A DNA stretch of 27,558 nt from a virus, in IMG/VR virus record IMGVR_UViG_3300037427_000363, positions 1 to 27,558 of that record; one strand, 5' to 3'. Below are positions 1 through 13,302 of the stretch, one piece after another (within the stretch, counting starts at the first letter, position 1; each line of letters opens with the position of its first letter). The notes beneath the pieces were generated by a model. The model saw nothing but the letters and a program-made list of their open reading frames with translations. It was not told the DNA's origin and made no database searches. Made by a program: the position numbers and the translations under genes.

Positions 1-173
1 GCTATTAGAGTACCTGTAGCCATTCTACGTTGAGCTTTCTGCTTACGGAGTTCAGCTTCAGTCTTATTTATCTCTTTAGCGTGTTCTAACTCTTCATCAG
101 TCACTATGCCATCACCATCTAAGTCGTAATCCTCGTACTCACTGTGTTGTTGAAACTTTTTTTGCGGTGTCAT
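1..173 (-). CDS. EF-hand-like acidic protein, partial (3' end beyond window)
   Basis: The first 57 codons of a leftward gene whose remainder lies beyond base 1. The start is ATG at 173-171, inside the end of the upstream gene (35-nt overlap). A calcium-loop-like acidic stretch DLDGDGIVTDEEL follows about 15 residues after the start, with the D-x-D-x-D-G spacing of EF-hand or dockerin loops. A charged helix (EELEHAKEINKTEAELRKQKAQRR) leads to the cut edge, where the residues become less charged. From memory, marine podoviruses carry short proteins with an EF-hand-like loop followed by membrane helices; whether a membrane segment follows here cannot be seen. It would be the second gene of the leftward late operon. 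The loop is clear; any role, including a lysis role, is a guess. Confidence 0.6.
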   Translation of the reverse strand, partial: MTPQKKFQQHSEYEDYDLDGDGIVTDEELEHAKEINKTEAELRKQKAQRRMATGTLI

Positions 174-432
174 ATGAGCAATACCCTCTTGGTCTATCTG
201 GATCTAGGACTTCATCCCTGCGTAAGTGTCCTTCTAGGAACATAGCCCTTTCTACATGGTCTAAACTATAAGTCTCCCCTGTGCGTTCAGCGATAGCTTT
301 GCGTACATAGAAGACATCGGACTTAGGGATGTGGACTTTGCTAAGACTATTAGGGTTGTTTCTAGCCAGAGTCTCATAAAAGTCTTCGATAACTGAGTCA
401 CTTGCATATAGTTTTACCTTCTTTTTACTCAT
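139..432 (-). CDS. Hypothetical protein, first gene of leftward operon
   Basis: 97 residues from ATG at 432-430 (MSKKKVKLYASD). An in-frame TTG six bases upstream is a less likely start. The protein is basic at its N terminus, predicted soluble, with no membrane segment and no motif I recognise; the middle (VFYVRKAIAERTGETYSLDHVERAM) looks helical. It is the first leftward gene after the divergent control region and overlaps the next gene by 35 nt, so the two are probably co-translated. There is no purine-rich Shine-Dalgarno sequence ahead of the start, unlike almost all rightward genes here, so it may begin on a nearly leaderless transcript or be weakly translated. Confidence 0.75.
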   Translation of the reverse strand: MSKKKVKLYASDSVIEDFYETLARNNPNSLSKVHIPKSDVFYVRKAIAERTGETYSLDHVERAMFLEGHLRRDEVLDPDRPRGYCSYDTAKKVSTTQ

Positions 433-519
433 TGTCAAACATTATTTTAGTTAATAACCATATTATGTAAGGTTATATAAACTATATAGTAACATATTAA
501 TAACAATAATACAAGAAAT

Positions 520-604
520 AGTTTTAACTTTATAGTTTTAACTATATATTAGTTATATTATAAAGTAGTTTTAACTTTAAAGTTTTAACTAAATAGTCTT
601 AACT
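520..604. repeat. Array of five AGTTNNAACT repeats
   Basis: AGTTTTAACT occurs exactly at 520, 534, 567 and 581, and once as AGTCTTAACT at 595. Start spacings are 14, 33, 14 and 14 bases. Each unit has dyad half-sites AGTT/AACT separated by two bases, as expected for a dimeric DNA-binding protein. A looser AGTT also lies at 551 inside the 33-base gap. The array sits about 90 bases upstream of the leftward start and just ahead of the 629-658 promoter. Operator array or origin iterons are both possible. Confidence 0.6.
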
Positions 605-628
605 ATGTTATACCACAGAATCACAAGG

Positions 629-658
629 TTGTCAAGCGACATATTGTCACACTATAAG
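629..658 (+). promoter_or_regulatory. Candidate rightward sigma70-type promoter
   Basis: TTGTCA (629-634), an 18-base spacer, then TATAAG (653-658). A second TTGTCA lies at 644-649. It is adjacent to the AGTTNNAACT array, which could control it. No coding sequence follows for over 500 bases, so the transcript would be a long leader or a small RNA. Confidence 0.35.
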
Positions 659-688
659 ATATATTAGTATTCCTATTATAGTAAAAAC

Positions 689-806
689 TAGGGGGTCTGC
701 CGTGTGATGCTATTTGTGATCACATTTAAGAAGAAATAAAGTGGTTAACAGCTAAAAATACGCTTCCGTGTATAGTTACATAGATATATATCCATAGACC
801 CCCCTA
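689..806. repeat. Split inverted repeat enclosing a palindrome
   Basis: TAGGGGGTCT (689-698) is matched by AGACCCCCCTA (796-806), the reverse complement with one extra C. The arms are G/C runs in an otherwise AT-rich region. TGTGATCACA (715-724), a perfect 10-bp palindrome, lies between them. The arms could pair across about 100 bases in RNA or as a DNA cruciform. Confidence 0.45.
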
Positions 807-1018
807 CGCCCCACGCACCATCACGTTATGTGGGTTCGATTTTTTTAAAAAAGAAAAAATATAAAACAATAGGACTCGGATAAAATAAATTTTAAGCTAG
901 GGATTCCGCATTGGATAATAAATAATAACTAAGCTATTGATATATAATAATATCTAAACTGTTTTACTATCAGTTATTAAAAATAGTATACCCATGATAT
1001 ATAGATATTCTAAGAATG

Positions 1019-1032
1019 GTTACAATTGTAAC
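1019..1032. promoter_or_regulatory. 14-bp palindrome, candidate operator
   Basis: GTTACAATTGTAAC is perfectly self-complementary. One half-site, TTGTAAC, recurs at 1072-1078, 46 bases downstream. Both lie just upstream of a candidate promoter (1100-1129) and the first island gene (1184), the usual place for a repressor or activator site. Confidence 0.45.
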
Positions 1033-1099
1033 GGTTATGTATGATATTAAATTCTAAAATATAAGTTTCATTTGTAACTAAAATTAATTTTTTTATTTA

Positions 1100-1129
1100 T
1101 TGTACATTACTCGCTTTTTGCTGTACTAT
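1100..1129 (+). promoter_or_regulatory. Candidate promoter for AT-rich island
   Basis: TTGTAC (1100-1105), an 18-base spacer and TACTAT (1124-1129), about 55 bases before the start codon at 1184. It is the best placed sigma70-like pair for the 1184 gene, but matches of this quality are common in AT-rich DNA. Confidence 0.3.
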
Positions 1130-1183
1130 CTAAGAATACAAAAACCGATTCTTTTAATACCGAATCAATTTAGGAAAAACAAA

Positions 1184-1543
1184 ATGACAAAAGCAAAATT
1201 AAAATTTGATAATGATTTAAACCTAGATAACTTTTTATATAGAGATAATGCAAAAAATAAATTAATAGATTTATGTAATCAGCGTTATGATGAAATAGAA
1301 AATCTAAAAGAAATTGTGAATCAATACGCAAGCGATCCTAAAAGGGAAAATTTAGCTAATGAAATAATAAAGTTAAAAACTGAAAACCTAAAACTAAAAA
1401 GAGATAATGAAATTACACAATCTAATTTAGGCGAGTCTTTAAATGATAATGAAAAGCTAGAGTCTGAAATAAAAGATTTAAAAACTCATTTAAGATTAAT
1501 TGCTAAATTATCAGACTATGTAAGTTTAGGTTATAAATTATAG
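1184..1543 (+). CDS. Hypothetical coiled-coil protein
   Basis: 119 residues. ATG at 1184 follows TAGGAAAAACAAA, a usable ribosome site; an in-frame ATG at 1100 would add 28 residues but has no ribosome site and overlaps the candidate promoter. The protein is Lys/Glu/Asn-rich. Residues from about 45 to 100 (LKEIVNQ ... ANEIIKLKTENLKLKRDNE ... EKLESEIKDLKTHL) form a heptad-like coiled coil, so it probably oligomerises. There is no enzymatic motif. It is the first gene of the island, with strongly AT-biased codons (AAA, AAT, TTA) unlike the genes after 3237. Function unknown. Confidence 0.7.
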   Translation: MTKAKLKFDNDLNLDNFLYRDNAKNKLIDLCNQRYDEIENLKEIVNQYASDPKRENLANEIIKLKTENLKLKRDNEITQSNLGESLNDNEKLESEIKDLKTHLRLIAKLSDYVSLGYKL

Positions 1544-1557
1544 AGTTAATATCTAGC

Positions 1558-1607
1558 AAGCGGATTCACTTAAAGAGTCCGCTTATAGATATTCGCTAAT
1601 GAATATC
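1558..1607 (+). other. Two tandem RNA hairpins between island genes 1 and 2
   Basis: Hairpin 1: AAGCGGATTC (1558-1567), 7-base loop, GAGTCCGCTT (1575-1584), ten pairs with one G-U. Hairpin 2: GATATTC (1588-1594), 6-base loop, GAATATC (1601-1607). Neither has a following T-run, so a simple intrinsic terminator is unlikely; an RNA processing or attenuation structure ahead of the 1640 gene is more plausible. Confidence 0.5.
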
Positions 1608-1639
1608 AACAAACCAAAAACTGACAATAGGAGTCAAAA

Positions 1640-1972
1640 ATGATTACATTTAATTTAAATAATATAGCTAGAGGTGAAACTATCAAAGGCGGATTCACTC
1701 CGATAAGAGTACTTGCAACCGCTTTAAGTTTTTACTTGAAAGGTAACAAGCCCGTTATCCACAGAAAGAATCCATTAGACAAGGGCTTTTTTATTAGACT
1801 CGGCAATGGTGGTAAATCTGGAGAACCTCTTTTAAGATTAAACTTTGGCAATTCTTATTCTTGCTTTCAGGCATATGATCGCAATGGTTATTCTAGAATT
1901 AATCAAAACGGAATCGTTAGGCATAAAAGAAAAGCTAACGGTACTAAATTGACTCAACGCCTAGCAAGTTAA
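1640..1972 (+). CDS. Hypothetical small basic protein
   Basis: 110 residues starting with MITFNLNNIARGE, preceded by an AGGAG (in ATAGGAGTCAAAA) eight bases before the start. It is basic and rich in Gly and Asn. The middle (KGFFIRLGNGGKSGEPLLRLNFGNSYSCFQAYDRNGYSRI) reads like beta strands and turns, and the C-terminal 20 residues (RHKRKANGTKLTQRL) are a basic tail, so nucleic-acid binding is possible but unproven. I do not recognise the family. A strong intrinsic terminator follows at 1982-2015, which should separate genes 1-2 of the island from those downstream unless transcription reads through. Confidence 0.7.
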   Translation: MITFNLNNIARGETIKGGFTPIRVLATALSFYLKGNKPVIHRKNPLDKGFFIRLGNGGKSGEPLLRLNFGNSYSCFQAYDRNGYSRINQNGIVRHKRKANGTKLTQRLAS

Positions 1973-1981
1973 TTTAAATTG

Positions 1982-2015
1982 GGAGTCTAGCTTTAATTAG
2001 TTAGACTCCGTTTTT
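1982..2015 (+). terminator. Rho-independent terminator
   Basis: GGAGTCTAGCT (1982-1992), loop TTAATT, AGTTAGACTCC (1999-2009): eleven pairs including one G-U, followed by G and TTTTT (2011-2015). It lies nine bases after the stop of the 1640 gene. This is the clearest intrinsic terminator in the window. Confidence 0.85.
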
Positions 2016-2057
2016 AAGTTAATAATGACCGTATAACAATTAAGAAAGGACTCTAAA

Positions 2058-2255
2058 ATGACAGCTACAAGTTTTCTATATAAAAAAGACTGGGGAATCT
2101 CAGATACTAAGATTCGCAAAGCAAAAATAAATGTTAAGCGATTTATTAGGAATCAGACTCCAGAAAAACAAAAAGCTTTAATTGAATACATTAAGACTAT
2201 TAAAAAAGATCATATTAATTTTCGAGCTAAAAGAAAAAATACTAGGAGTCTTTAA
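2058..2255 (+). CDS. Hypothetical small, very basic protein
   Basis: 65 residues, about a third of them Lys or Arg, with few acidic residues. The start is ATG at 2058 after AAAGGACTCTAAA. The sequence (WGISDTKIRKAKINVKRFIRNQTPEKQKALIEYIKTIKK) suggests two or three short helices and a basic C terminus, in keeping with DNA or RNA binding, but no named fold is recognisable. It follows the 1982-2015 terminator, so it needs read-through or its own promoter. The stop is one base before the next start. Confidence 0.65.
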   Translation: MTATSFLYKKDWGISDTKIRKAKINVKRFIRNQTPEKQKALIEYIKTIKKDHINFRAKRKNTRSL

Positions 2256-2256
2256 T

Positions 2257-2331
2257 ATGTTTTTTCATCCTGATTTAATAATAGTAATATTAACAATAAT
2301 AATTTTAATAGGAGTCGGATTATGCCGTTAG
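2257..2331 (+). CDS. 24-residue single-pass membrane peptide
   Basis: ATG at 2257 is preceded by TAGGAGTCTTTAAT, a good ribosome site, and begins one base after the previous stop. The peptide is MFFHPD, then about 16 hydrophobic residues (LIIVILTIIILIGVGL), then C-R and a stop that overlaps the start of the 2322 gene by ten bases. It is the size and shape of small toxin or lysis-modulating membrane peptides, but the sequence does not identify one. The ribosome site and end-to-end packing argue that it is real; the AT-rich composition makes a chance hydrophobic reading frame possible. Confidence 0.5.
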   Translation: MFFHPDLIIVILTIIILIGVGLCR

Positions 2332-3020
2332 ATAACATAGGACACATTTCTAAACTAAGAGGAAAGCTAATTAAATTTGAAGCTATAGGAAACAATACAA
2401 AAAAGAATAAGTTTTGCTATGATAGGTATATTGAAGCTAAAAAGAAAAATGAGCTTGCTGGAAAAATTGTTGATATATGCGGAGTCTGTTACTCCCATAA
2501 ATCTATGAATAGCTACATGAAAAACTTACCTTTATCATTAGATAAAAATGAAATACTAGCGGCAAAACTATTGAGTGATCTAGAGATTAAACAATTCTTT
2601 TTCTTGCAATCCTTTTTCCGTTTTAATCATCATGGTGAGCTATTGACTGAATTAGTAGATGATAATGGAGTCATAATAAAAACCTTTCCAAAATATAACA
2701 TGATCGAAAATTACTGTAGGATAGCGGAATACAATCCGCATTGTACATTCGCTTTATGGACAAAACGATCTGATATAATAAAAAGATATTTTGATAAAAG
2801 AGAAAAACCTAAAAACCTTATTATCGTTTTTTCTAATACTAAGGTTGATAAAGTTATTACTAAGATACCTAAACATTTTGACAAGGTTTTCAACAATGTA
2901 AATGGTGATAACTTTAAAGAGATTCAAAACTGTACAGGACAAAAATGCAAAGATTGTCTTAGATGCTATAAGCATAGTGACAAGCTAGAAAATAATATCA
3001 TAGTAGAAAAAACAAAATAA
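2322..3020 (+). CDS. Cys-rich phage protein, GP88-like
   Basis: 232 residues from ATG at 2322, after AATAGGAGTCGGATT. There is a CxxCY pair near residue 53 (CGVCY) and a C-terminal cluster C204, C209, C212, C215 (C-x4-C-x2-C-x2-C-Y). The middle reads FFRFNHHGELL, then NPHCTFALWTKRSD, a pattern I associate with the mycobacteriophage gene-88 family (GP88), whose function is unknown to me. The eight or so Cys suggest a metal or iron-sulfur site. It is the largest and last gene of the AT-rich island and shares its AT-biased codons. A divergent GP88 homologue is my best guess; confidence in the gene is high, in the family moderate. Confidence 0.75.
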   Translation: MPLDNIGHISKLRGKLIKFEAIGNNTKKNKFCYDRYIEAKKKNELAGKIVDICGVCYSHKSMNSYMKNLPLSLDKNEILAAKLLSDLEIKQFFFLQSFFRFNHHGELLTELVDDNGVIIKTFPKYNMIENYCRIAEYNPHCTFALWTKRSDIIKRYFDKREKPKNLIIVFSNTKVDKVITKIPKHFDKVFNNVNGDNFKEIQNCTGQKCKDCLRCYKHSDKLENNIIVEKTK

Positions 3021-3236: not shown

Positions 3237-4085
3237 ATGACAACATATAGTGAAAGACCAATAACTAAGATGCCAGAAGAAATAGCATTTGACGTTTCTT
3301 TTGAGCCTACCAGATTTGACATGAGTAAGTATGTCATTAACAACAATACTGATGAGGTGATAGGAATTGTAGGTAAAGACTTTAAGTGTGCTAGCCACAT
3401 TGATTTCTACAGACAAGTCAGAGATACAGTTGTAGCTGAACTTAGTGACCATGACTTAGAGGATGCTACGTTGACTTGGCGAACTGCCAGAAACAATGCT
3501 TGGACTATGATGGATATGCGTTTGCCAAATGTGACACATAAGATAGCAACTAGTAAACATGAAACTGATGTAGCTCAAAGAATTATAGCTTTGCATGGTG
3601 TTGATGGGTCTTGTAGTAATACTACGTTATTTGGTGCAATAGACTATTACTGTAGTAATGGCTTAATTACTGGTGAGTACAATACCATTAAGCGAAAGAA
3701 TACATCAGGGTTTAGCTTGGAAGCTTTCATAGATGAACTGTATAGGTCTAAAGAAGATTTTACTCAGCAGATGGGTATTTTGCAGAAATGGGCAGATACT
3801 ACGTTGACCTACGTTAATGTCAAAGAGGTATTAGAGAAGATGATTAAGTCAGATCGTAAAGCTGAGAAGATGCTCAAGCTATACAATCAAGAGCGAATCA
3901 CTAGAGGTGCTAATGTATTTGCCTTGTATAGTGCTTTGACTAATTATTCATCTTACGCAGATGAGAGAAATGGTTTCGCTCTAAGAAACACAGGCTACGA
4001 TACTGCATCTGAGTCAATGTGGAAGCGAGAAAATGAGGTATCACAATGGATCTCATCTCCTATCTTTAAGGAGTTAGTAGCATGA
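3237..4085 (+). CDS. DUF932 family protein
   Basis: 282 residues, with ribosome site AAAGGAGAATCAATTT before ATG at 3237. The sequence fits the DUF932 (phage/plasmid-like) family: an N-terminal segment with FKCASHIDFYRQV, a central Cys/Asn-Gly-rich core (DYYCSNGLITGEYNTIKRKNTSG) and a C-terminal helical part ending GYDTASESMWKRENEVSQWI. Family members occur in phages and plasmids, often beside recombination or early genes; the biochemical function is not known. It is the first and largest gene of the early cluster, directly after the promoter, so it is probably made early and in quantity. The last four bases overlap the next start (ATGA). Confidence 0.85.
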   Translation: MTTYSERPITKMPEEIAFDVSFEPTRFDMSKYVINNNTDEVIGIVGKDFKCASHIDFYRQVRDTVVAELSDHDLEDATLTWRTARNNAWTMMDMRLPNVTHKIATSKHETDVAQRIIALHGVDGSCSNTTLFGAIDYYCSNGLITGEYNTIKRKNTSGFSLEAFIDELYRSKEDFTQQMGILQKWADTTLTYVNVKEVLEKMIKSDRKAEKMLKLYNQERITRGANVFALYSALTNYSSYADERNGFALRNTGYDTASESMWKRENEVSQWISSPIFKELVA

Positions 4086-4249
4086 CATACTTAATATACG
4101 ATATATCATTTTACAAAGTAAATGATGATAGTGAGCCTACCAGAGATGGTGATGGTAGGGTTAAACTTTATAACCCAAAGGGTAGATGGAAGGAGTTAGA
4201 ATATCTTTGCGAAGATAAAGATGATGATGACTTTGAAGGTAGAAGATAG
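4082..4249 (+). CDS. Hypothetical acidic small protein
   Basis: 55 residues (MTYLIYDISFYKVNDDS...). The start overlaps the DUF932 stop as ATGA and AAGGAG lies nine bases upstream. It is acidic, with a run of four Asp near the C terminus and a WKELEYLCED segment. No family is recognised. It is shorter than common gene-calling limits, but translational coupling and end-to-end packing support it. Confidence 0.65.
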   Translation: MTYLIYDISFYKVNDDSEPTRDGDGRVKLYNPKGRWKELEYLCEDKDDDDFEGRR

Positions 4250-4250
4250 C

Positions 4251-4475
4251 ATGATAACTGAAACTATAACAACTTATGGACTGCTCATGGTTATGCAATT
4301 CGCTAGCCTTGAGCAGTGTGAGACTTGGGCAACTAAAGTTTATGAACAAGAGAAGGGTGGATGCTTTGAGCAATACGAAATAATTAAAACTCTTATTGAC
4401 TTACCACCAGAAAGACCTAGAATGTTTTTATCGAATCAGTATAACTATGTAATAGCAAAGAAGGAGATACAGTAA
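4251..4475 (+). CDS. Hypothetical small protein
   Basis: 74 residues from ATG at 4251, one base after the previous stop. In-frame ATGs at 4221-4227 are possible but would run inside the upstream gene. MITETITTYGLLMVMQFASLEQCETW is followed by a helical acidic region; no motif is recognised. The stop shares a base with the next start (TAATG). Confidence 0.7.
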   Translation: MITETITTYGLLMVMQFASLEQCETWATKVYEQEKGGCFEQYEIIKTLIDLPPERPRMFLSNQYNYVIAKKEIQ

Positions 4476-4873
4476 TGGCACAAACAATAGAAATGAAAGA
4501 AACACAGATAGAGAACACATTCACTATCAAGCTGACTAAGACCATGCTAAACAAGTCTACTATAGACGCATCCAAAGACGTAAAAGATTGGTACTTTTAT
4601 GCCTTAGAAGGTAACTTTGGGGATATGCTACGAATGGAACAAGATGAGCATGACGCAGAGTTTGTCTTTGGTGTTCCTACCAAGATAAAGTTCTACAGAA
4701 CTAAGGGCAGAGGTGACAATAGGTTCTGGATCAAGGACTTGCGTAAATACGCTGACGAAGGTGACTACCTGACTGTAGAGGAAGCCTATGTAGGTAGTAT
4801 GGGTGGACAAGGTGGAGTTAAGACCATCATTATAAATGTAAATGAACCAGAAGTAGTAGAAAAAGGAGAATAA
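4475..4873 (+). CDS. Hypothetical conserved-type phage protein
   Basis: 132 residues, with ribosome site AAGGAGATACAGTA before the start. It appears soluble and mixed alpha/beta: TFTIKLTKTMLNKSTIDASK, then a core with KIKFYRTKGRGDNRFWIKDLRKYADEGDY, then a C-terminal beta-like stretch (VKTIIINVNE) and an acidic tail. The family is unrecognised. Its position in the early train suggests a host-directed or regulatory role, but nothing in the sequence proves it. Confidence 0.75.
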   Translation: MAQTIEMKETQIENTFTIKLTKTMLNKSTIDASKDVKDWYFYALEGNFGDMLRMEQDEHDAEFVFGVPTKIKFYRTKGRGDNRFWIKDLRKYADEGDYLTVEEAYVGSMGGQGGVKTIIINVNEPEVVEKGE

Positions 4874-4875
4874 TT

Positions 4876-5154
4876 ATGACAAATAAACAAGCAGAAACAG
4901 TAGTGTCTTTCACAGTAAGTCAGAGATATGATTTCTTAGAACTTATAAATGCTATGAAAGACTTAGACAATCAAGTATCTGAAGGTGTACCATTGGAGTA
5001 CAACACTATAGAAAAGATTAGGCACAGTTCTTGGATACTCAGTAAGGTGTTCAACTTTGCACAACCTAGATGCGAACATGGTCACACGAATCACTATAGT
5101 GACTACATATTTAGTGAAGATGTACCTAAAGAAAAGAAAGATAAGGTGAACTAA
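4876..5154 (+). CDS. Hypothetical small protein
   Basis: 92 residues, preceded by AAAGGAGAATAATT. It appears helical at first (RYDFLELINAMKDLDNQVSEG), then carries a Cys/His-rich stretch FAQPRCEHGHTNHYSDY with one Cys and three His close together, which could bind a metal. The family is unknown. It joins the next gene by TAATG. Confidence 0.7.
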   Translation: MTNKQAETVVSFTVSQRYDFLELINAMKDLDNQVSEGVPLEYNTIEKIRHSSWILSKVFNFAQPRCEHGHTNHYSDYIFSEDVPKEKKDKVN

Positions 5155-5441
5155 TGACTGACATGGAAGTATATGACCTATCACCAAAAGAGATGATAGC
5201 TAATGAAGTGGGTCTGCCTATGTTTGACTTAGAGGAAGCAAAGCATACCCATGTACACTGCTCAGATGACTTAGATATAGAGTGCCTAGTACATTCAGAT
5301 GGAGAAATAGTTGATGGTATGAACTTACTTGTAAAAGTAAATCAACCATCACAGAACATCAAAGATAGCTACAGACTAATGATAAGTGTAGACTACCAAG
5401 ATTTTATGCAAGAGGAGAATGAAGATGGCAAAGTTGAATGA
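5154..5441 (+). CDS. Hypothetical acidic protein
   Basis: 95 residues beginning in the previous stop (TAATG). It is acidic and contains HTHVHCSDDLDIECLVH (three His and two Cys in a short stretch) and a C-terminal EENEDGKVE. No family is recognised. Its C terminus overlaps the next gene by 17 bases, which includes that gene's start. Confidence 0.65.
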   Translation: MTDMEVYDLSPKEMIANEVGLPMFDLEEAKHTHVHCSDDLDIECLVHSDGEIVDGMNLLVKVNQPSQNIKDSYRLMISVDYQDFMQEENEDGKVE

Positions 5442-5715
5442 AGAAGAATTTGAAAAGTACAAACAAGAAACAAACGTACCATGTATTAAGGTATATAAAA
5501 GAGAAGTTGAAGAAGATGATGGTCGGACAACTTTTTTTGGTACAGAAAAACACTTGAAAGATTGGAAGCTAGAGGAAGCTGATTGGATAGCACAAGATTT
5601 ATCGGTATGTAATGATAGTATTGAGCTTTTCGCTGAGTTCTCTATTGATGAAGAAGGTATAAAAGAGTTTTTGGATGAAATAAATGATGAAGTAGGACAT
5701 TGGAGAAGCAAATGA
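5425..5715 (+). CDS. Hypothetical acidic protein
   Basis: 96 residues from ATG at 5425, seven bases after GAGGAG; the in-frame ATG at 5419 lies too close to that ribosome site. Highly acidic, rich in Glu, Asp and Trp (DWKLEEADWIAQD ... EFLDEINDEVGHW). Acidic early proteins in phages can mimic DNA or bind host enzymes; here that is only a thought. The stop overlaps the next start (ATGA). Confidence 0.7.
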   Translation: MAKLNEEEFEKYKQETNVPCIKVYKREVEEDDGRTTFFGTEKHLKDWKLEEADWIAQDLSVCNDSIELFAEFSIDEEGIKEFLDEINDEVGHWRSK

Positions 5716-5909
5716 CTAAAAGATATAACTCAATGAGCATAGATAAGGTAGATGGCAAGACGTACTGGCACAAATCCTTTGAGAGCATGGAAGAAGTAAA
5801 AGCTCACTGTAATAGGTATGTTAGTAAACCATGTGATATAATAGTGTATGACATATCAAAAGATTTAGGAGCAATAAAGTTTGTAGAAATATGGGAGGAT
5901 TTCAAATGA
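5712..5909 (+). CDS. Hypothetical small protein
   Basis: 65 residues from ATG at 5712, six bases after GGAG. An upstream in-frame TTG (5700) is less likely. MTKRYNSMSIDKVDGKTYWHKSFESMEEVKAHCNRYV is followed by PCDIIVYDIS: a compact alpha/beta protein of unknown family. The stop overlaps the next start as ATGA. Confidence 0.65.
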   Translation: MTKRYNSMSIDKVDGKTYWHKSFESMEEVKAHCNRYVSKPCDIIVYDISKDLGAIKFVEIWEDFK

Positions 5910-6103
5910 TATTCAAGAATGAACTACCACTAGACCATGAGCATAGCTTTGAGCATATGTATAATTCATGGGCATTGGATCAGCAAGAAGAGGATAAAGA
6001 GTGTAGCCCTGACCTTTACTCTAGCAACCTAGACTACTATCAGGATTGGGCATATAACTTTTTGAGTGAAGAACTTAGGTCATCTGGATTGGAGTGGGCA
6101 TGA
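5906..6103 (+). CDS. Hypothetical acidic small protein
   Basis: 65 residues from ATG at 5906, seven bases after GGGAGG; an in-frame ATG at 5891 precedes that ribosome site and is unlikely. It is acidic and aromatic (EHSFEHMYNSWALDQQEED ... DYYQDWAYNFLSEEL). Unknown family. The stop overlaps the next start (ATGA). Confidence 0.65.
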   Translation: MIFKNELPLDHEHSFEHMYNSWALDQQEEDKECSPDLYSSNLDYYQDWAYNFLSEELRSSGLEWA

Positions 6104-6270
6104 ACTGTTGGCATTGTAATACAGAACTAATCTGGGGAGGAGATCACGACTGCGAGGATAGTGTAGAGTGGCTCATAGTTAGCAACCTACACTGCCCTAA
6201 TTGTCAGAGCCATGTAGATGTATACTTTCCTAGAGAAGAAGAAGATGAGAAGGATTGGATAGATGAGTAA
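6100..6270 (+). CDS. Small zinc-ribbon-like protein
   Basis: 56 residues. Two CxxC knuckles are present: MNCWHCN (C3, C6) and HCPNCQSH (C32, C35), 26 residues apart, a classic zinc ribbon. The C terminus is acidic (REEEDEKDWIDE). Small phage zinc ribbons commonly bind nucleic acid or a host protein; the partner is unknown. It is coupled to its neighbours by ATGA at the start and an 8-base overlap at the end. Confidence 0.7.
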   Translation: MNCWHCNTELIWGGDHDCEDSVEWLIVSNLHCPNCQSHVDVYFPREEEDEKDWIDE

Positions 6271-6529
6271 GTACACAATAGTTTATACAGCCTTACCTCC
6301 TGATGAAGTGGAATGGCACGAAAGCAACCCTTATACTAAATGTGAAAAAGCTATCTTTAATGGTGACGTTTTCAGCAAGGCTGAACACATAGAGGGTAAT
6401 ACTCTTGATGATGCAATTAAAAAACATATTGAGTCGTTAAAGGATCGTAATATTCAGGAACTTATAGGTGATGTAATTATTCTTGAAGGTCATGTTCGTG
6501 AAATTAAAGAGGAGATAGAAGATGAGTAA
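6263..6529 (+). CDS. Hypothetical acidic protein
   Basis: 88 residues (MSKYTIVYTALPPDEVEWHES...). It starts inside the last codons of the zinc-ribbon gene in a GATGAGTAA arrangement, so the upstream product ends Asp-Glu while this one starts Met-Ser-Lys. The C-terminal half (DVIILEGHVREIKEEIEDE) is helical and acidic. Unknown family. Confidence 0.7.
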   Translation: MSKYTIVYTALPPDEVEWHESNPYTKCEKAIFNGDVFSKAEHIEGNTLDDAIKKHIESLKDRNIQELIGDVIILEGHVREIKEEIEDE

Positions 6530-6734
6530 GGAAGACCCACCTCATGTTGCACTAGCAAAGGCTCGTATACTAGCTGACCTACGTTACTTAGATGTATGGA
6601 AAGCTGACCTGATTAGAGATATTATGTTGCTAGAGAAACCTACAGAGTCACCACTATTTAATAAGAGAGGATTGTTTAGAGATGCCGAAGAAGGATTACC
6701 GAAAAGAGATACTAAAGATGAAGGAGATGTTTAA
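6522..6734 (+). CDS. Hypothetical helical small protein
   Basis: 70 residues, starting through the same GATGAGTAA overlap as the previous gene. The amphipathic helix HVALAKARILADLRYLDVWKADLIRDIML dominates; the C terminus is charged. Unknown family. Confidence 0.65.
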   Translation: MSKEDPPHVALAKARILADLRYLDVWKADLIRDIMLLEKPTESPLFNKRGLFRDAEEGLPKRDTKDEGDV

Positions 6735-6933
6735 GGTCATGCCTTTAACTGTAGTATGCGTTGACCAAGCTGAGAAGAGTGCTTATGTAAGACAAGCTAG
6801 GCAGATGCGTAATGTAAAGAACTTTGAGTTCATAACTAGGGAGGAAAATGATGAACGAAAGAAAAAGCTCAGTGCTAAGATCGAAGCTGAGACAAGAGCT
6901 AGGCTCAAAAGTATTAGACCAGAAGTTGAATAA
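6682..6933 (+). CDS. Hypothetical basic small protein (start uncertain)
   Basis: 83 residues from ATG at 6682, which overlaps the previous gene by 53 bases and has a weak ribosome site. ATGs at 6718, 6727 and 6739 are alternatives; AAGGAG at 6721-6726 is best placed for 6739 (12-base spacer). The conserved-looking core is MPLTVVCVDQAEKSAYVRQARQMRNVKNFEFITREE with a long basic C-terminal helix. It reads like a short beta-alpha domain plus a helix; function unknown. Confidence 0.6.
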   Translation: MPKKDYRKEILKMKEMFKVMPLTVVCVDQAEKSAYVRQARQMRNVKNFEFITREENDERKKKLSAKIEAETRARLKSIRPEVE

Positions 6934-7066
6934 ACACTATGATGCTCAACTACCTAGCTTTATGCTGACCTATAATGGTACTATATATTTTGGTCACACA
7001 AAGGAAGAAGTAATAGATAAAGTAGAAAAAGAAATACTACGGTCATCAAGAGATGGGATGAGATAA
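6851..7066 (+). CDS. Hypothetical small protein
   Basis: 71 residues from ATG at 6851, six bases after AGGGAGG; ATG at 6848 is equally in frame. It overlaps the preceding gene by over 80 bases in another frame. The basic N terminus is followed by SFMLTYNGTIYFGHTKEEVIDKVEKEILRSS. The last nine codons coincide with the second copy of the CTACGGTCATCA repeat. Unknown function. Confidence 0.6.
   Translation: MNERKSSVLRSKLRQELGSKVLDQKLNKHYDAQLPSFMLTYNGTIYFGHTKEEVIDKVEKEILRSSRDGMR
7037..7066 (+). repeat. CTACGGTCATCA / GATGGGATG motif, copy 2
   Basis: CTACGGTCATCA (7037-7048), then AGAGATGGGATGAGATAA, matches copy 1 at 3089-3143 in both the 12-base core and the GATGGGATG part. It lies at the end of a coding frame and just before the 7071 start. 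Confidence 0.5.
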
Positions 7067-7070
7067 GACA

Positions 7071-7223
7071 ATGATAAAGAAAACAATGGGAGTGCAACCA
7101 ATTAATCCTGTAGCTAGAGCTATGTTGCAAAAGCGAAAGAGTCCTATGGTCATTCCTAACAAAAAGAAACAGAAACCTAAAAAGATAAATAGAAGGGAGT
7201 TTGACAATGAAAGAGATCTATGA
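7071..7223 (+). CDS. Small very basic proline/lysine-rich protein
   Basis: 50 residues. After MIKKTMGVQPINPVARAM comes a strongly basic tail (QKRKSPMVIPNKKKQKPKK). Short proteins with a NPVAR segment and a Lys/Arg tail are frequent in marine podoviruses as far as I recall. It probably binds nucleic acid. No clear ribosome site is present, but a GATGAGATAAG stretch precedes it. Confidence 0.6.
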   Translation: MIKKTMGVQPINPVARAMLQKRKSPMVIPNKKKQKPKKINRREFDNERDL

Positions 7224-7344
7224 TACCCTAAACGAATCAGTCTTACTTGATGAAGATTTTGATGAGTGGGCAGAAGAAGAAGATTTAATTAATGATATAG
7301 TAGATAGATTTAACAATATAATAAACCAAGAAAAGGAGAATTAA
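7207..7344 (+). CDS. Hypothetical very acidic microprotein
   Basis: 45 residues, about 16 of them Asp or Glu (SVLLDEDFDEWAEEEDLINDIVD). Ribosome site AGGGAG precedes the start, which lies inside the end of the basic 50-residue gene. The pairing of a very basic and a very acidic microprotein in overlapping frames is notable. Unknown function. Confidence 0.6.
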   Translation: MKEIYDTLNESVLLDEDFDEWAEEEDLINDIVDRFNNIINQEKEN

Positions 7345-7345
7345 T

Positions 7346-7549
7346 ATGATAGGAATAGCAGAAGGATTTTTAGCAACAGTAATAGTAGCTTTCAGTATAC
7401 ACCATGCAGATTTTAATGAGATGGTAGCTGAAAGATATAAGCAAGGGCATTGGTGGAAGTTTAAGCCTGAGTTTGTAGAAGAAGAAAGAATAGCTATACC
7501 ATTTAACTCAGAGCATGGAAGATATGTTCTATTTCAAATAGGAGAATAG
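7346..7549 (+). CDS. Small protein with N-terminal membrane segment
   Basis: 67 residues after AAAGGAGAATTAAT. Residues 2-18 (IGIAEGFLATVIVAFSI) are hydrophobic and could be a membrane anchor; the rest is soluble and aromatic (YKQGHWWKFKPEFVEEERI). No lysis motif is recognised. Confidence 0.65.
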   Translation: MIGIAEGFLATVIVAFSIHHADFNEMVAERYKQGHWWKFKPEFVEEERIAIPFNSEHGRYVLFQIGE

Positions 7550-7551
7550 TA

Positions 7552-7644
7552 ATGAAAAAAGGAGGAGAAGGATATGGAACGATTATACTTGGCATACTAT
7601 CAGGCTGTTTCATGGTATATTTTTGGTTTTGTATTATTTACTGA
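7552..7644 (+). CDS. 30-residue membrane microprotein
   Basis: ATG at 7552 is seven bases after AGGAG. MKKGGEGYG is followed by about 20 hydrophobic residues (TIILGILSGCFMVYFWFCII) and ends with Tyr. A second start with its own ribosome site lies inside it at 7574 in another frame, so one or both may be used. Role unknown. Confidence 0.5.
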   Translation: MKKGGEGYGTIILGILSGCFMVYFWFCIIY

Positions 7645-7849
7645 ATATATAAAAAGAGTCGGTCTTACTCTTAGTATTCTTTTTAATGTTTTGATAGGAG
7701 GAGAAATGCACCAAACTTTTTCCTCTAGGAACTGGGAGAGAAGACGCAACAAAAAAACTAACCTAGTCTGGATCATAGATTTCTTTTTCGGTGACGGACA
7801 TTGCATGGAGTCTTGGGTAAAATGGCAAACAAAGATACTAAAAAAGTAA
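7574..7849 (+). CDS. Hypothetical membrane-associated protein (start uncertain)
   Basis: 91 residues from ATG at 7574, eight bases after GGAGG, with hydrophobic stretches at about residues 11-23 and 30-42. An alternative start at 7706, four bases after AGGAGG, would give a 47-residue soluble basic protein (MHQTFSSRNWERRRNKK...). Packing without gaps favours 7574; the stronger ribosome site favours 7706. The 3' end overlaps the integrase gene. Not recognised. Confidence 0.5.
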   Translation: MERLYLAYYQAVSWYIFGFVLFTEYIKRVGLTLSILFNVLIGGEMHQTFSSRNWERRRNKKTNLVWIIDFFFGDGHCMESWVKWQTKILKK

Positions 7850-8742
7850 AGACCCTTAGTGATATGATTGACTATTACTTTCGTAGTCCACAGTACCGAT
7901 CTTTAAGAGGTAGAACTCAGATGGACTACGAGTATTGTCTGAACAATGCTTTAGCTACTAAGATAAGTGAAAGCAAAACACTAGGTAGCATCAAGTTAGA
8001 CAGACTAGGTAAAGCTGATTGTAAACTAGCTTATCAGGAATGGCTAACCAGAGGTGTCAGGACAGCTAATATAACTGCTACAACCCTGTCAGTTGTACTG
8101 AATATGGCAGAGCAAATGGAGTTACTTATGATTAACCCTATGAAAGCAGTAAAACGTATGACACAGAAGCCACGACAGGTTATGTGGACACCTGACCAAG
8201 TTAGATTATTCTTAGATACGGCATACTCTGACTTTAAGTGGAGGAGTGTAGGTCTGCTTGTGCATATGGCATATGAGTTTGCCCAAAGAGTAGGTGATAT
8301 GCGTCTGCTTAAATGGAATAACATTAACTTTGAAGCTAGGCGATTAGACCTTACACAATCTAAGAAAAGAGCAGAGGTTCACCTTCCTATAGAGGATAAT
8401 TTATACAAAATGCTGCAACAGCAACAGGAGGACTTTGGCTTCCAAGAATACGTTGTTCCTCATGTAAGACCGATTAATGGTGCGTACAGACCTTATACTA
8501 ATATTGAAGTCTCACCCATTGTAAATGAGGTAAAGGCTGTCTGTGGCTTACCTAGTGAGTTACAGGCTATGGATATGCGTAGGACAGCAATTACAGAGAT
8601 GGTAGAGGCAGGAGTAGACAGCACTCAGATTATGGCTGTAAGTGGACACACAAATCCTAACTCTATGAAGCCTTACTTGAAGCATACCTTTGCATCAGCT
8701 AATAATGCCCTGTCCAGACGAGGAGAATACAAGCATGTCTAA
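7822..8742 (+). CDS. int: Tyrosine recombinase / integrase
   Basis: 306 residues from ATG at 7822; an in-frame TTG at 7801 would add seven. Residues about 10-110 form the helical SAM-like core-binding domain (RGRTQMDYEYCLNN). The catalytic domain has Arg I in AQRVGDMRLLKW (R156), the beta-hairpin Lys in LTQSKKRAEVHL (K181/182), box II MDMRRT (R253), SGHTN (H276) and nucleophile Y285 in PYLKHT. Box II normally reads H-x-x-R; here His is Met (M250), as in some diverged recombinases. Such enzymes integrate or excise phage genomes or resolve multimers. No attachment site was recognised in the window. It sits between the early train and the replication genes and overlaps the primase by eight bases. 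Confidence 0.9.
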   Translation: MANKDTKKVKTLSDMIDYYFRSPQYRSLRGRTQMDYEYCLNNALATKISESKTLGSIKLDRLGKADCKLAYQEWLTRGVRTANITATTLSVVLNMAEQMELLMINPMKAVKRMTQKPRQVMWTPDQVRLFLDTAYSDFKWRSVGLLVHMAYEFAQRVGDMRLLKWNNINFEARRLDLTQSKKRAEVHLPIEDNLYKMLQQQQEDFGFQEYVVPHVRPINGAYRPYTNIEVSPIVNEVKAVCGLPSELQAMDMRRTAITEMVEAGVDSTQIMAVSGHTNPNSMKPYLKHTFASANNALSRRGEYKHV

Positions 8743-9541
8743 CCAGAGGATTAAACAGCTTATAGATGGACTGCACCTAGATTTTAGTCAGAGTTTAACT
8801 CTTAACTGCCCTATCTGTGGTGGGTACAAGAAGTTCAGTGTGACTAACCTAGATGGAACAATAGTGTATAACTGTTACAGGAATAGCTGTGGCACTAAAG
8901 GAGCAGTGAAGACTACTATGACAAGTGAGCAAGTACAAAAGAAGATGAGATTAGCCCACGAAGCTAGAAAGAGAAGCCTAGACTTTGTATTACCTGAGTA
9001 TATAACAGTAGATATTCTTAACACATCCATGAAAAGATTTATCAATAGGTGGGGTCTACGAAATGTACGTTTATACTATGACGTTAAAGATAAACGAGCA
9101 GTGTTTCCTATCTTTGAAAACAACAAGATGGTAGGAGCTATAGGTAGAGCTTTAAATAATATCTTTCCCAAGTGGTTACGTTACGACAAGACTGCTAATT
9201 ACTATTCGCATGTACTAACTAGCGAATCATCTGTAGCTGTAGTAGTTGAAGACGTTATCTCAGCTACAGTACTAGCTCAAGAGATACCTCAAGTTACAGG
9301 TGTAGCGATTTTGGGTACATCGTTAAACGACAAACACAGGGAGTACTTAACTAAGTTTAAAAAGATAGTGATAGCTTTAGATCCAGATGCTGCAACTAAA
9401 ACAATAGGTTACACTAAAGAGTTAAAGTCTTTTTGTGGAGATAAGACATCAGTTTTAGCTTACAGATTAGAAGACGATATTAAATACAGGCGAGAAAACG
9501 ACATCAATAACATAAAGGAGATAACTAATGAAAAAGTGTAG
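8735..9541 (+). CDS. DNA primase, zinc-binding and TOPRIM
   Basis: 268 residues; ATG at 8735 is coupled to the integrase stop, with AGGAG ten bases upstream. The N-terminal zinc ribbon has C25, C28, C47 and C52 (CPICGG ... CYRNSCG). The TOPRIM core follows with VAVVVEDVISA (E172, D173) and IALDPDAA (D216, D218), the acidic metal-binding residues. It matches the primase half of T7 gp4 but is a free-standing protein; the helicase is encoded two genes downstream. It makes RNA primers for lagging-strand synthesis. The end overlaps the next gene by 14 bases. Confidence 0.9.
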   Translation: MSNQRIKQLIDGLHLDFSQSLTLNCPICGGYKKFSVTNLDGTIVYNCYRNSCGTKGAVKTTMTSEQVQKKMRLAHEARKRSLDFVLPEYITVDILNTSMKRFINRWGLRNVRLYYDVKDKRAVFPIFENNKMVGAIGRALNNIFPKWLRYDKTANYYSHVLTSESSVAVVVEDVISATVLAQEIPQVTGVAILGTSLNDKHREYLTKFKKIVIALDPDAATKTIGYTKELKSFCGDKTSVLAYRLEDDIKYRRENDINNIKEITNEKV

Positions 9542-10031
9542 TACATGTGGAGAAACACTAGTTAAAGATGTAAATTGGACACATTCTAGGTATAATAAAG
9601 GTATTAATAAATGTAAATATTGTAATAGCGATGAAGGTAATAAAGATAGGATGTGGGTAAACGGTGTTTACATACCTACAAGTCACCCAGATTGGAAAGC
9701 AGGGTATTATAAAGATTGGTCTAGTGTAGCTTTCTCTAATATGAACAACTACAATAAAAAAACTGAAGGTGACGTATATGTTATTACAAACCCTGCATGG
9801 AAAAACTGGTATAAAATAGGTAAGGCAGTAGATGCAGAGGATAGATGTAAAGGATACCAAACAAGTAGCCCACATAGAGACTACGAGCTAGTAAAAGTAA
9901 TTCCTTGTGATGATAGGAATAGAGCAGAAATACTAGCCCATAGAGCCGCAGAAAAAATATGTGTTGAAAAAAGAAACGAATGGTTCTATACTGAAAACTT
10001 AAATGAATTAATAGAAGGAATCACACCATGA
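9528..10031 (+). CDS. GIY-YIG-superfamily nuclease (T5orf172/MUG113-like) with zinc finger
   Basis: 167 residues. N-terminal zinc knuckles are C4/C7 (CSTCG) and C29/C32 (CKYC). From about residue 82 a T5orf172/MUG113-type GIY-YIG domain follows: GDVYVIT, YKIGKA, a catalytic-type Arg in AEDRCKGYQ (R106), an AEILAHRAAEK helix and the EWFY element (E151). Related free-standing proteins are candidate homing endonucleases or nickases. It sits between primase and helicase, overlapping both (14 and 4 bases), and shares the local codon use. It could be a mobile homing gene or a fixed nuclease of the replisome; the sequence alone does not decide. Confidence 0.8.
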   Translation: MKKCSTCGETLVKDVNWTHSRYNKGINKCKYCNSDEGNKDRMWVNGVYIPTSHPDWKAGYYKDWSSVAFSNMNNYNKKTEGDVYVITNPAWKNWYKIGKAVDAEDRCKGYQTSSPHRDYELVKVIPCDDRNRAEILAHRAAEKICVEKRNEWFYTENLNELIEGITP

Positions 10032-11254
10032 TGGAATTAGCACTAATTCGTAGTTTAATGAACAAGGACTTCTATGAAGACCACAAGGGTATACGTTGCC
10101 CAGATAAGCTGTTCACTAAAGATATACGGAAGATTAAGCAGACAGTAGACTACGCAATGGAGAACTTTGAGAAAGACTTAACTGTATCGGAGTTGCAAGG
10201 TTTGTTTATGACTAGCAACAGTACAATGACTACAGCTACTAAAGAATCATATGACCAACTATTCAGTAAACTAGAACAGGAGAAGCCTATGTGTCAGGAC
10301 ATATCTAAGCAAGTATTTTCTAAATTGTTTCAACAGATGGTAGGCGAGGAAATAGCCAACTTAGGTTTTGACTACGTTAACGGTGACAAGAGTACACTAG
10401 AACCATTACGAGTATTACTAAACGACTACCACGATAACTTTTTACCTAACCTAAATGTTGAGTGGGAAGATATGAGCATAGACACACTACTTAAAGCTAA
10501 CGCTATACAGAGCCAGTGGAAGTTTAACATACCTAGTTTGCAGAGAAAGGTGGAGGGTATTAGTGGAGGACATTTAGTTCTAATAGGAGCAAGACCTAAC
10601 ACAGGTAAGACTAGCTTCCACGCATCATTGATAGCTTCTAAAGATGGATTTGCAGAGCAAGGAGCTAAGTGTATTATCTTATGTAATGAAGAAGCATATG
10701 ATAGGGTTGGAGCTAGGTATCTTTCAGCCGCTACAAATATGAGTATGGATGAGGTGCGTCAAAATGTCTCATTAGCTTCAGCTAGGTATCAGCCAGTTAA
10801 AGACAATGTATACGTTAAGGATACAACAGGAAAAGATATGGCTTGGGTTGAGGCAGTAGTTAAAGCTACTACACCTGACGTAGTAGTGTTAGATATGGGA
10901 GATAAGTTTGCTAACAGAACAGGAGAACGATCTGACATATACTTAAAAGAATCAGCTATACACGCTAGAAACATAGCTAAACAATATAACTGTGCAATTC
11001 TGTGGATGTCACAACTATCAGCAGAAGCTGAAGGTAAAATTATGGTAGATCAATCTATGCTTGAAGGTAGTAAGACAGGCAAGGCATCTGAGTCAGACTT
11101 GATGCTACTTATCAGTAAGAACCCTACTATAGAAGGACAAGAAAATGAAGATACAGAACGGCACATAGTTATAGCTAAGAATAAGCTTAAAGGTGGATGG
11201 CACGGTGTTGTCACTGTTCAGTTAGATGGAGAAAGAGCTAGGTTTACAGCATGA
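10028..11254 (+). CDS. Replicative DNA helicase, DnaB/RecA-like
   Basis: 408 residues. Residues 1-145 form a helical N-terminal domain like that of DnaB helicases. The RecA-like motor has Walker A GARPNTGKTS (187-196), a Glu pair in LCNEEAYDR, Walker B VVVLDM (285-290) and the H3-type Gln in ILWMSQLS (Q329). The arginine-finger region reads AKNKLKGG, with Lys where Arg is common. Hexameric helicases of this type unwind the fork and bind primase. It is encoded apart from the primase, unlike T7 gp4, with a nuclease gene between. Start ATG at 10028 overlaps the previous stop (ATGA); the next start overlaps its stop. Confidence 0.9.
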   Translation: MMELALIRSLMNKDFYEDHKGIRCPDKLFTKDIRKIKQTVDYAMENFEKDLTVSELQGLFMTSNSTMTTATKESYDQLFSKLEQEKPMCQDISKQVFSKLFQQMVGEEIANLGFDYVNGDKSTLEPLRVLLNDYHDNFLPNLNVEWEDMSIDTLLKANAIQSQWKFNIPSLQRKVEGISGGHLVLIGARPNTGKTSFHASLIASKDGFAEQGAKCIILCNEEAYDRVGARYLSAATNMSMDEVRQNVSLASARYQPVKDNVYVKDTTGKDMAWVEAVVKATTPDVVVLDMGDKFANRTGERSDIYLKESAIHARNIAKQYNCAILWMSQLSAEAEGKIMVDQSMLEGSKTGKASESDLMLLISKNPTIEGQENEDTERHIVIAKNKLKGGWHGVVTVQLDGERARFTA

Positions 11255-13302
11255 AGCTAATACTTGACGTAGAGAACACTACAACAAAACGAGATGGTAA
11301 GAATCATCTTGACCCTTTTGAGCCATCTAACACTCTAACTCAAGTGGGTGTTCTTAATGCACAGGGTAGCAAACCTCATGTGTTTACTTATGACCACACT
11401 GAGAAGCAAGACACTGATGGTTCGCAAAGGAAACAACTACAGGCTGTACTAGATAAAACGACACTCCTGATAGGACACAACTTACAGCACGACTTACAGT
11501 GGTTGTGGGCATGTGGGTTTAAGTACGATGGCACAGTGTACGATACCATGTTAGCTGAATACTTATTACAAAGAGGACAAAAGAACTCTGTATCTCTTGA
11601 GGCTTGTGCAGATAGGTATGAACTAGGCTACCAGAAGCAAGACACTCTAAAGAAATACTTTGCTGACGGATATAACACTAATGAGATACCATTGGCTGAG
11701 TTATCAGGTTACTTAGAGCAAGACCTGTATGTAACTAAATGTCTGTACCATAGGTTAGAGAAAGAGTATGAAGCTCCAGAGGCACAGTCTCTACTTGGAG
11801 TTAGGGATATAAACAATGACGTTTGTAAGACCCTTACTAAGATGTACATGAGTGGCTTTAAGATAGACAAAGATGCCCTAGCTGAAGTGAGAAAGCAGTT
11901 TGAGACAGAACTAGCAGAGATAGAACAGAGATTAAACACTACAGTAAAAACTATTATGGGTGACACTCCTATCAACCTTAACTCACCAGAACAAGTTAGC
12001 CAAGTAATATACTCTAGGAAGGTACGGAACAAAAAAGAATGGGCTGTGTTGTTTGATTATGTAAACACTAAGGATGAGTTTCTATCAGCATACAAGTCTA
12101 ATAGTGACATGATGATGCGAACTAAGGCACACACATGTTTAAAGTGTAATGGCACTGGCAAGGTGCGTAAGACTAGAAAGGATGGGAAGCCTTTTGCCAA
12201 GCCTACTAAGTGTGACGCATGTGAAGCTAAAGGATACCTGTACACTGAAACTAGCACTATGGCAGGGCTAGGCTTTGCACCTCCATCTAAGGATTGGGTG
12301 AGTGCCAATGGTTTTACTACCAGTAAAGGCAACTTAGAAACGCTTATGTCAGCCGCTAAGAGTAAGAACATGGACACAGCATACGACTTCCTGTCTGATT
12401 TAAAGCGTCAGAGTGCTATCTCCAGTTACTTATCTAGCTTTGTTGAAGGCATACACAACTTCACTAAGCCTGATGGGTTACTCCATGTAGGTTTAACTCA
12501 GCACGTTACAGCTACAGGCAGGTTCTCAGGGCGAAACCCTAACATGCAGAATATGCCTAGAGGAGGTACGTTCCCTGTTAAGCGAGTATTTGTATCCAGA
12601 TGGAATGGAGGTAAGATTATAGAGGCTGACTTTGCACAGCTAGAGTTTAGAGTTGCCGCTTTGTTATCTCAAGACCAGACAGCTATGAAAGAAGTTGAGA
12701 CAGGCTTTGATGTTCATAGCTATACAGCTAAAGTTATATCTGATGCAGGTCAACCAACATCACGACAAGAAGCTAAAGCTCATACCTTTGCACCGTTGTA
12801 CGGAGCTACAGGGTACGGCAGGAGTAAAGCAGAGGCTGAGTACTACACTCACTTTACATCTAAGTATAAGGGGATAGCTAAGTGGCACAAGAAGCTAGGC
12901 AATGAAGCTATTAACTTAGGCAAAATAACTACACCTTCAGGAAGACAATATGCGTTTCCTGATGTAGAGAGAAGGACTAATGGCAACCCTTCTCATTTCA
13001 CTATGATTAAGAACTACCCTGTACAAGGCTTTGCTACAGGAGATATAGTTCCTATCGTACTCCTAGAGATAGAGAAGCGTTTAGATATAGACGGATTAAA
13101 TAGTCTACTAGTAAACACAGTTCACGATTCTGTGGTGATAGATGTCCATCCATCTGAGGAGAAAGCAGTCTTGGGGATAATCCAAGAAATAAATGACAAG
13201 TTGTCTGACATAATTGAATCGTACTACGATATAGATATTAACGTGCCAATGTTACTAGAAGCTAAGATGGGTAATAATTGGCTTGACACTGTTGATATTT
13301 AG
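11251..13302 (+). CDS. Family A DNA polymerase with DnaJ-type zinc-finger insert
   Basis: 683 residues. The 3'-5' exonuclease has D6/E8 (LDVEN), N77/D81 (GHNLQHD) and Y154/D158 (YLEQD), so proofreading looks intact. At 296-328 a DnaJ-like pair of CxxCxGxG-type knuckles (CLKCNGTG ... CDACEAKG) lies before the polymerase domain; as I recall this is a mark of HMO-2011-type phages. Motif A is DFAQLEFR (D460), motif B RQEAKAHTFAPLYG (R505, K509, F513, Y517). Motif C reads HDS (625-627) where HDE is usual. F513 matches E. coli Phe762. It replicates the phage genome. Overlaps the helicase stop by four bases; a promoter begins inside its 3' end. Confidence 0.95.
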   Translation: MKLILDVENTTTKRDGKNHLDPFEPSNTLTQVGVLNAQGSKPHVFTYDHTEKQDTDGSQRKQLQAVLDKTTLLIGHNLQHDLQWLWACGFKYDGTVYDTMLAEYLLQRGQKNSVSLEACADRYELGYQKQDTLKKYFADGYNTNEIPLAELSGYLEQDLYVTKCLYHRLEKEYEAPEAQSLLGVRDINNDVCKTLTKMYMSGFKIDKDALAEVRKQFETELAEIEQRLNTTVKTIMGDTPINLNSPEQVSQVIYSRKVRNKKEWAVLFDYVNTKDEFLSAYKSNSDMMMRTKAHTCLKCNGTGKVRKTRKDGKPFAKPTKCDACEAKGYLYTETSTMAGLGFAPPSKDWVSANGFTTSKGNLETLMSAAKSKNMDTAYDFLSDLKRQSAISSYLSSFVEGIHNFTKPDGLLHVGLTQHVTATGRFSGRNPNMQNMPRGGTFPVKRVFVSRWNGGKIIEADFAQLEFRVAALLSQDQTAMKEVETGFDVHSYTAKVISDAGQPTSRQEAKAHTFAPLYGATGYGRSKAEAEYYTHFTSKYKGIAKWHKKLGNEAINLGKITTPSGRQYAFPDVERRTNGNPSHFTMIKNYPVQGFATGDIVPIVLLEIEKRLDIDGLNSLLVNTVHDSVVIDVHPSEEKAVLGIIQEINDKLSDIIESYYDIDINVPMLLEAKMGNNWLDTVDI

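Follow-up and report, generated by a model that had tools for sequence, protein, structure and literature searches.

A recurrent dyad array on a predicted promoter of HMO-2011-type marine phages, probably an operator

The virus record IMGVR_UViG_3300037427_000363 (27,558 bases, analysed over its full length and called the window) comes from a marine phage of the HMO-2011 type and covers part of its genome. It carries five short dyads on a predicted leftward promoter, P1, and we consider it likely that this array is a cis-acting operator for a putative phage-encoded, sequence-specific DNA-binding regulator. What the sequences show directly is that the array exists and lies on P1, that arrays recur in relatives with motifs specific to each lineage, and that the lineage with TACT half-sites has a second one. 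The putative lineage-specific regulator of the late and lysis operon is probably a repressor, and only the position of the dyads favours repression over activation. The array thus offers a concrete spot at which to seek the master regulator of HMO-2011-type phages, and its motifs a way to sort the phages of one host into regulatory classes and to test whether these exclude one another.

The dyads and the leftward promoters

The 10-mer AGTTTTAACT was found at four sites and AGTCTTAACT, with one mismatch, at one, all between positions 520 and 604 (Table 1). The start-to-start steps of 14, 33, 14 and 14 bases bear out an earlier sequence-only reading of the window, which had reported five near-identical dyads in 85 bases with three of the four spacings equal to 14. 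In the intergenic region (433–1183; 751 bases, 25.7% G+C) the four exact sites compare with a mean of 0.037 in dinucleotide shuffles, none of 2000 of which reached four. When any 4-bp half-site with gaps of 0–6 was allowed, four dyads in 85 bases were reached in none of 1000 shuffles. The number of one-mismatch sites over the whole window was unremarkable (39 observed, 30.4 expected), so the signal lies in the clustering of the dyads. Further sites elsewhere in the genome, which the same reading had proposed to look for, did not turn up, as the exact 10-mer has no other copy in the 27,558-base record.

P1 is predicted as a near-consensus sigma-70-type promoter on the minus strand (635–607), and the array spans about −4 to +80 relative to it. 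Binding would most likely block initiation at P1, where transcription is expected to start within the first dyad. The sequence-only reading had placed the dyads between divergent arms, with the leftward start on one side and a candidate rightward promoter on the other. They are indeed intergenic, but they occupy the first ~90 nucleotides (nt) downstream of a leftward sigma-70 promoter. The rightward promoter was not recovered: under strict criteria the intergenic gap has no rightward match to the consensus, and a looser scan gave weak plus-strand matches only.

A second promoter, P2, lies about 80 bp past the last dyad, outside the array, and its −10 box coincides with codons for a VKL or VQL peptide in the first leftward gene. 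Among 64 representatives with this peptide, the V codon at P2 was GTA in all 64 (elsewhere 165 of 346), the L codon was CTA in 62 (elsewhere 63 of 377), and in 63 the V codon lay at a distance of 21 from TTGAC. P2 is therefore constrained at the DNA level, and the peptide seems to be dictated by the promoter. In lineages with P2 upstream of the gene these residues are altered or gone, and in contig L014, where no P2 was found, the first gene reads QKL.

Contig L007 is identical to window positions 1–2372 and extends further leftward. Judged by eye, its next proteins resemble membrane or holin-like proteins and a peptidase-type endolysin, and in phage CRP-207 the equivalent arm runs to lysozyme, terminases and portal. 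The leftward arm was therefore taken as a late operon, and we take transcription from P1 and P2 to cover a gene for a 97-amino-acid protein followed by lysis, packaging and structural genes. P2, past the array and uncovered, could sustain expression of the late genes further along when P1 and the first gene are silenced.

Table 1. Coordinates of the dyads, predicted promoter boxes and first leftward gene in the window
Feature	Position	Strand	Remark
Dyad 1, AGTCTTAACT	595–604		one mismatch; 2 nt past the P1 −10 box, covers the expected start site
Dyad 2, AGTTTTAACT	581–590		
Dyad 3, AGTTTTAACT	567–576		
Dyad 4, AGTTTTAACT	534–543		beyond the 33-base step
Dyad 5, AGTTTTAACT	520–529		
P1 −35 box, TTGACA	630–635	−	leftward, sigma-70-type; conserved in L008, L009, L010 and L013
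P1 −10 box, TATAAC	607–612	−	17-nt spacer
GACA-N3-TGTC dyad	638–648		just upstream of the P1 −35 box; possible second site
P2 −35 box, TTGACA	433–438	−	abuts the start codon of the first leftward gene
P2 −10 box, TAAAAC	411–416	−	inside the first leftward gene; 16-nt spacer
First leftward gene, 97 amino acids	139–432	−	family of CRP-207 gp76 and HMO-2011 gp71; candidate regulator

Recurrence in relatives and lineage-specific motifs

Three scans of viral contigs with the first-gene family gave 240 loci, and eight regions from named phages supplemented these. Of the 241 loci tested, 223 had a called P1 and 229 a P2-like promoter near the gene start. The P1–array–P2 layout recurs in the group, and the motif varies by lineage: AGTTNNAACT, TACTNNNAGTA, CACTNNNAGTG, ACTTAAGT and ACATNNNATGT. 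The leading classes are TACT-3-AGTA, AGTT-1-AACT, AGTT-2-AACT, ACAT-3-ATGT, ACTT(-1)-AAGT and CACT-2/3-AGTG.

Of the 91 representatives left after dereplication, 86 had leaders suitable for a test with no motif set beforehand, in which an array was called when at most 2 of 200 shuffles matched it. Significant dyad arrays were found in 40 of the 86 leaders. Among control stretches of equal length, 2 of 83 from downstream of the gene and 6 of 72 from upstream of P1 had one; at least two of these six upstream matches (L035, L082) themselves carry the AGTT motif. Of 35 array leaders for which a promoter was called, 20 have a first dyad that starts −3 to +3 nt from where the −10 box ends, and 58 of the 165 dyad steps in array leaders measure 12–14 bp. 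In four distinct genomes of the window clade, 34 of 40 half-site columns were invariant, compared with 21 of 45 columns between half-sites (Fisher p = 2.6e-4). In the window and its relatives alike, specific dyads are thus repeated beyond chance at a promoter. The sequence-only reading had offered an operator array as one of two explanations, to be abandoned if relatives with the same gene order lacked it and no phage protein bound it. The array is present in many lineages, with exceptions given below, and the operator explanation is well supported by promoter position, recurrence, conserved half-sites and the second array in one lineage. Small dimers would bind the 10–11-bp dyads side by side at steps of 12–14 bp, the two dyad groups may cooperate across the intervening gap, and the specificity of the regulator would have diverged between lineages, as in immunity repressors.

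Seven of eight TACT-class records have a second, distant cluster. It is preceded by a promoter-like sequence in CRP-13, L286 and L291, and it adjoins a similar one in CRP-9, G010, G011 and G013. These are not seven independent cases, because G009 is closely related to CRP-13, with 99% identity in the first gene. The array is tied to the leftward arm by three cobaviruses: their polymerases resemble those of CRP-9 and CRP-13, but neither a first-gene match nor a TACT array was found in them.

The other explanation offered by the sequence-only reading, replication-origin iterons bound by an initiator, is very unlikely. The repeats do lie where the two arms diverge, in AT-rich intergenic DNA, and a conserved GTTAACCAC block is nearby. 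Their conserved unit, however, is a short palindrome with variable spacers and a fixed place on the promoter, the TACT lineage has an array at a second, distant promoter-like sequence too, and an origin would more plausibly be sought in the GTTAACCAC block, which is more uniform. No gene for an iteron-binding initiator was recognised next to the array among the open reading frames (ORFs) scanned, which were part of the total. As to the block itself, 52 of 78 upstream regions from relatives, across motif classes, contain the 9-mer GTTAACCAC, compared with 0 of 74 downstream, and GTGGTTAAC on the plus strand (741–749) is its site in the window. It may belong to a rightward promoter or act as an origin or DnaA-like element. 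A palindrome, GTGATCAC (window 716–723), was present in 16 of the 78 upstream regions and in 0 of the 74 downstream.

It is extremely improbable that the array acts as an RNA element of the leader. The repeats would lie in the P1 transcript, but the loop left by a single dyad would be just 2 nt long, the fold of the leader is only a little better than those of its shuffles (z = −1.83; 7 of 200 as good), and the short step and promoter-locked position suit DNA binding better. Separately, an apparent long inverted repeat with a pyrimidine-rich loop was seen by eye in the leader upstream of the first gene in the VQLY clade (L087, L094, L052).

Several results weigh against an operator of the kind that we favour. 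No significant array was called in 46 of the 86 leaders, which are either negative or too divergent for the method; among them are relatives with variants such as AGTTATAACA (L024, L025), CRP-1 (in the unbiased test) and CRP-207. CRP-2 had no clear motif, and L014–L016 carry the first gene but neither P1, P2 nor an array. The window clade lacks the second cluster (none in eight AGTT-class records), and Pfam and PHROGs recognised no DNA-binding regulator in the proteins scanned. In addition, many loci share lineages, so the counts are not independent.

Candidates for the binding protein

Three CACTNNNAGTG sites were found in CRP-1, and six and ten TACTNNNAGTA sites in CRP-9 and CRP-13, respectively, each reached in 0 of 500 shuffles. 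Neither the CACT motif of CRP-1 nor the TACT motif of CRP-9 and CRP-13 was found in the 330 bp of the other, and all three phages are listed on host strain FZCC0023. Different motifs in phages of one host strain make a host transcription factor a highly unlikely binder, even though the promoters resemble host sigma-70 promoters.

Motif differences among phages of one host resemble immunity groups, and CRP-3, a member of this group, integrates at a tRNA-Met (PMC6918029). The array might accordingly be the operator of a lysogeny repressor that silences late genes in the prophage. We regard this as possible but rather unlikely: strong arrays are present in CRP-9 and CRP-13 despite the absence of an annotated integrase, and in the proven integrator CRP-3 neither of the two upstream stretches examined has an array of this kind. 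When one genome for each of 84,980 species was scanned for the first gene, six contigs of metagenome-assembled genomes were found, none shown to be a prophage. At least where no integrase is annotated, the presence of arrays speaks for a role in lytic timing.

Within the leftward arm, the natural candidate for the binder is the 97-amino-acid product of the first gene, for which the evidence is mixed. Its named relatives are in HMO-2011 and seven Roseobacter CRP phages. If it bound the dyads itself, P1 would be autoregulated and P2, with its start inside that gene, would keep the late genes on, an idea to which we give a fairly low probability. Variants of the protein track the same lineages that the motifs track. 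On the other hand, a fold search of the PDB with its AlphaFold monomer (mean predicted local distance difference test score, pLDDT, 81.5; predicted template modelling score 0.68) gave no match at E ≤ 0.001, the net charge of many members is near zero or negative, some being acidic, and L014–L016 have the gene without the array. A ribbon-helix-helix fold, guessed by eye, also lost support. The monomer model has no clear N-terminal strand, the VKL residues double as the P2 −10 box, and L208, L217, L222 and L223, without VKL, keep TACT-type arrays. This fold was missing from the fold-search matches as well, an absence that does not prove that the fold differs. In CRP-3, gp50 (L296 3148–3405) retains only the C-terminal part of the family (partial match, E = 6.3e-6) and is preceded by a TTGACC-N17-TATAAT-like promoter.

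Proteins of an AT-rich island next to the intergenic region, which the sequence-only reading had named as candidates, might serve as lineage-specific regulators, but the suggestion was not supported: relatives were found in at most 10 of the 254 loci searched per protein and in 0 of the 6 named phage stretches among these loci. The island protein at 1640–1969 had no match in named phages, and its model, built from 8 rows (mean pLDDT 59.7), was too poor for use. Similarly, in 65 proteins from small ORFs of CRP-9 and CRP-13, which cover part of these genomes, Pfam at E ≤ 0.01 listed no helix-turn-helix or ribbon-helix-helix family.

With low confidence, we suggest that an undescribed family of small regulators, possibly that of the 97-amino-acid protein, reads tandem dyads at late promoters in at least five specificity classes, and that a promoter in the first codons of the regulated gene lets the late operon escape repression. 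The group would then have heterotypic, immunity-like classes without a known repressor.

Known operator systems and the phage group

Lambdoid and other immunity-type operators consist of several short dyad copies at a promoter, and their specificity differs among related phages of one host. The array shares both features. It differs in that its dyads measure 10–11 bp, follow each other at 12–14-bp steps and lie mostly downstream of the −10 box of a late or lysis operon, and no CI- or Cro-like gene was recognised in the proteins scanned. Operators of the MetJ, Arc and omega type are likewise tandem short palindromes beside a promoter, suited to small dimers side by side, but they have a step of 7–8 bp, compared with 12–14 bp here, and no such protein was found. 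In mycobacteriophage L5, the operators and stoperators described in PMC9283540 are asymmetric 13-mers, more than twenty across the genome. As there, one regulator probably reads several sites and specificity differs between related phages (PMC9283540). Unlike the stoperators, which are scattered genome-wide and oriented with transcription, the present sites are palindromic and clustered at one or two promoters, and the exact window 10-mer is found in the array only.

Its polymerase, the order of its genes and the named phages with relatives of the first leftward gene place the window in the HMO-2011-type group. A DNA polymerase A with a partial DnaJ central domain is given in PMC9038755 as a trait of these phages, which are there called a dominant marine group. 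The window polymerase matched PF00476 (E = 2.2e-53), as in HMO-2011-type phages, and its residues 290–332 gave a weak match to PF00684 (E = 7.7e-5; 23.3 bits, below the cut-off of 32.7). The modules and integrases of the group are covered in PMC9038755, PMC8528129 and PMC6918029, and the words promoter and repressor are absent from the main texts of these papers. A literature search, in which subscription papers were mostly not included, found no description of dyad arrays of this kind.

Other proteins of the window are a DnaB-type helicase, a Toprim protein and a tyrosine integrase. The AT-rich island (1184–3020) has a G+C content of 28.5%, compared with 38.1% for positions 3237–13302. Its protein at 2322–3020 is weakly GP88-like and related to one in pelagiphage Greip, and it was found at 25 loci in the viral scan.
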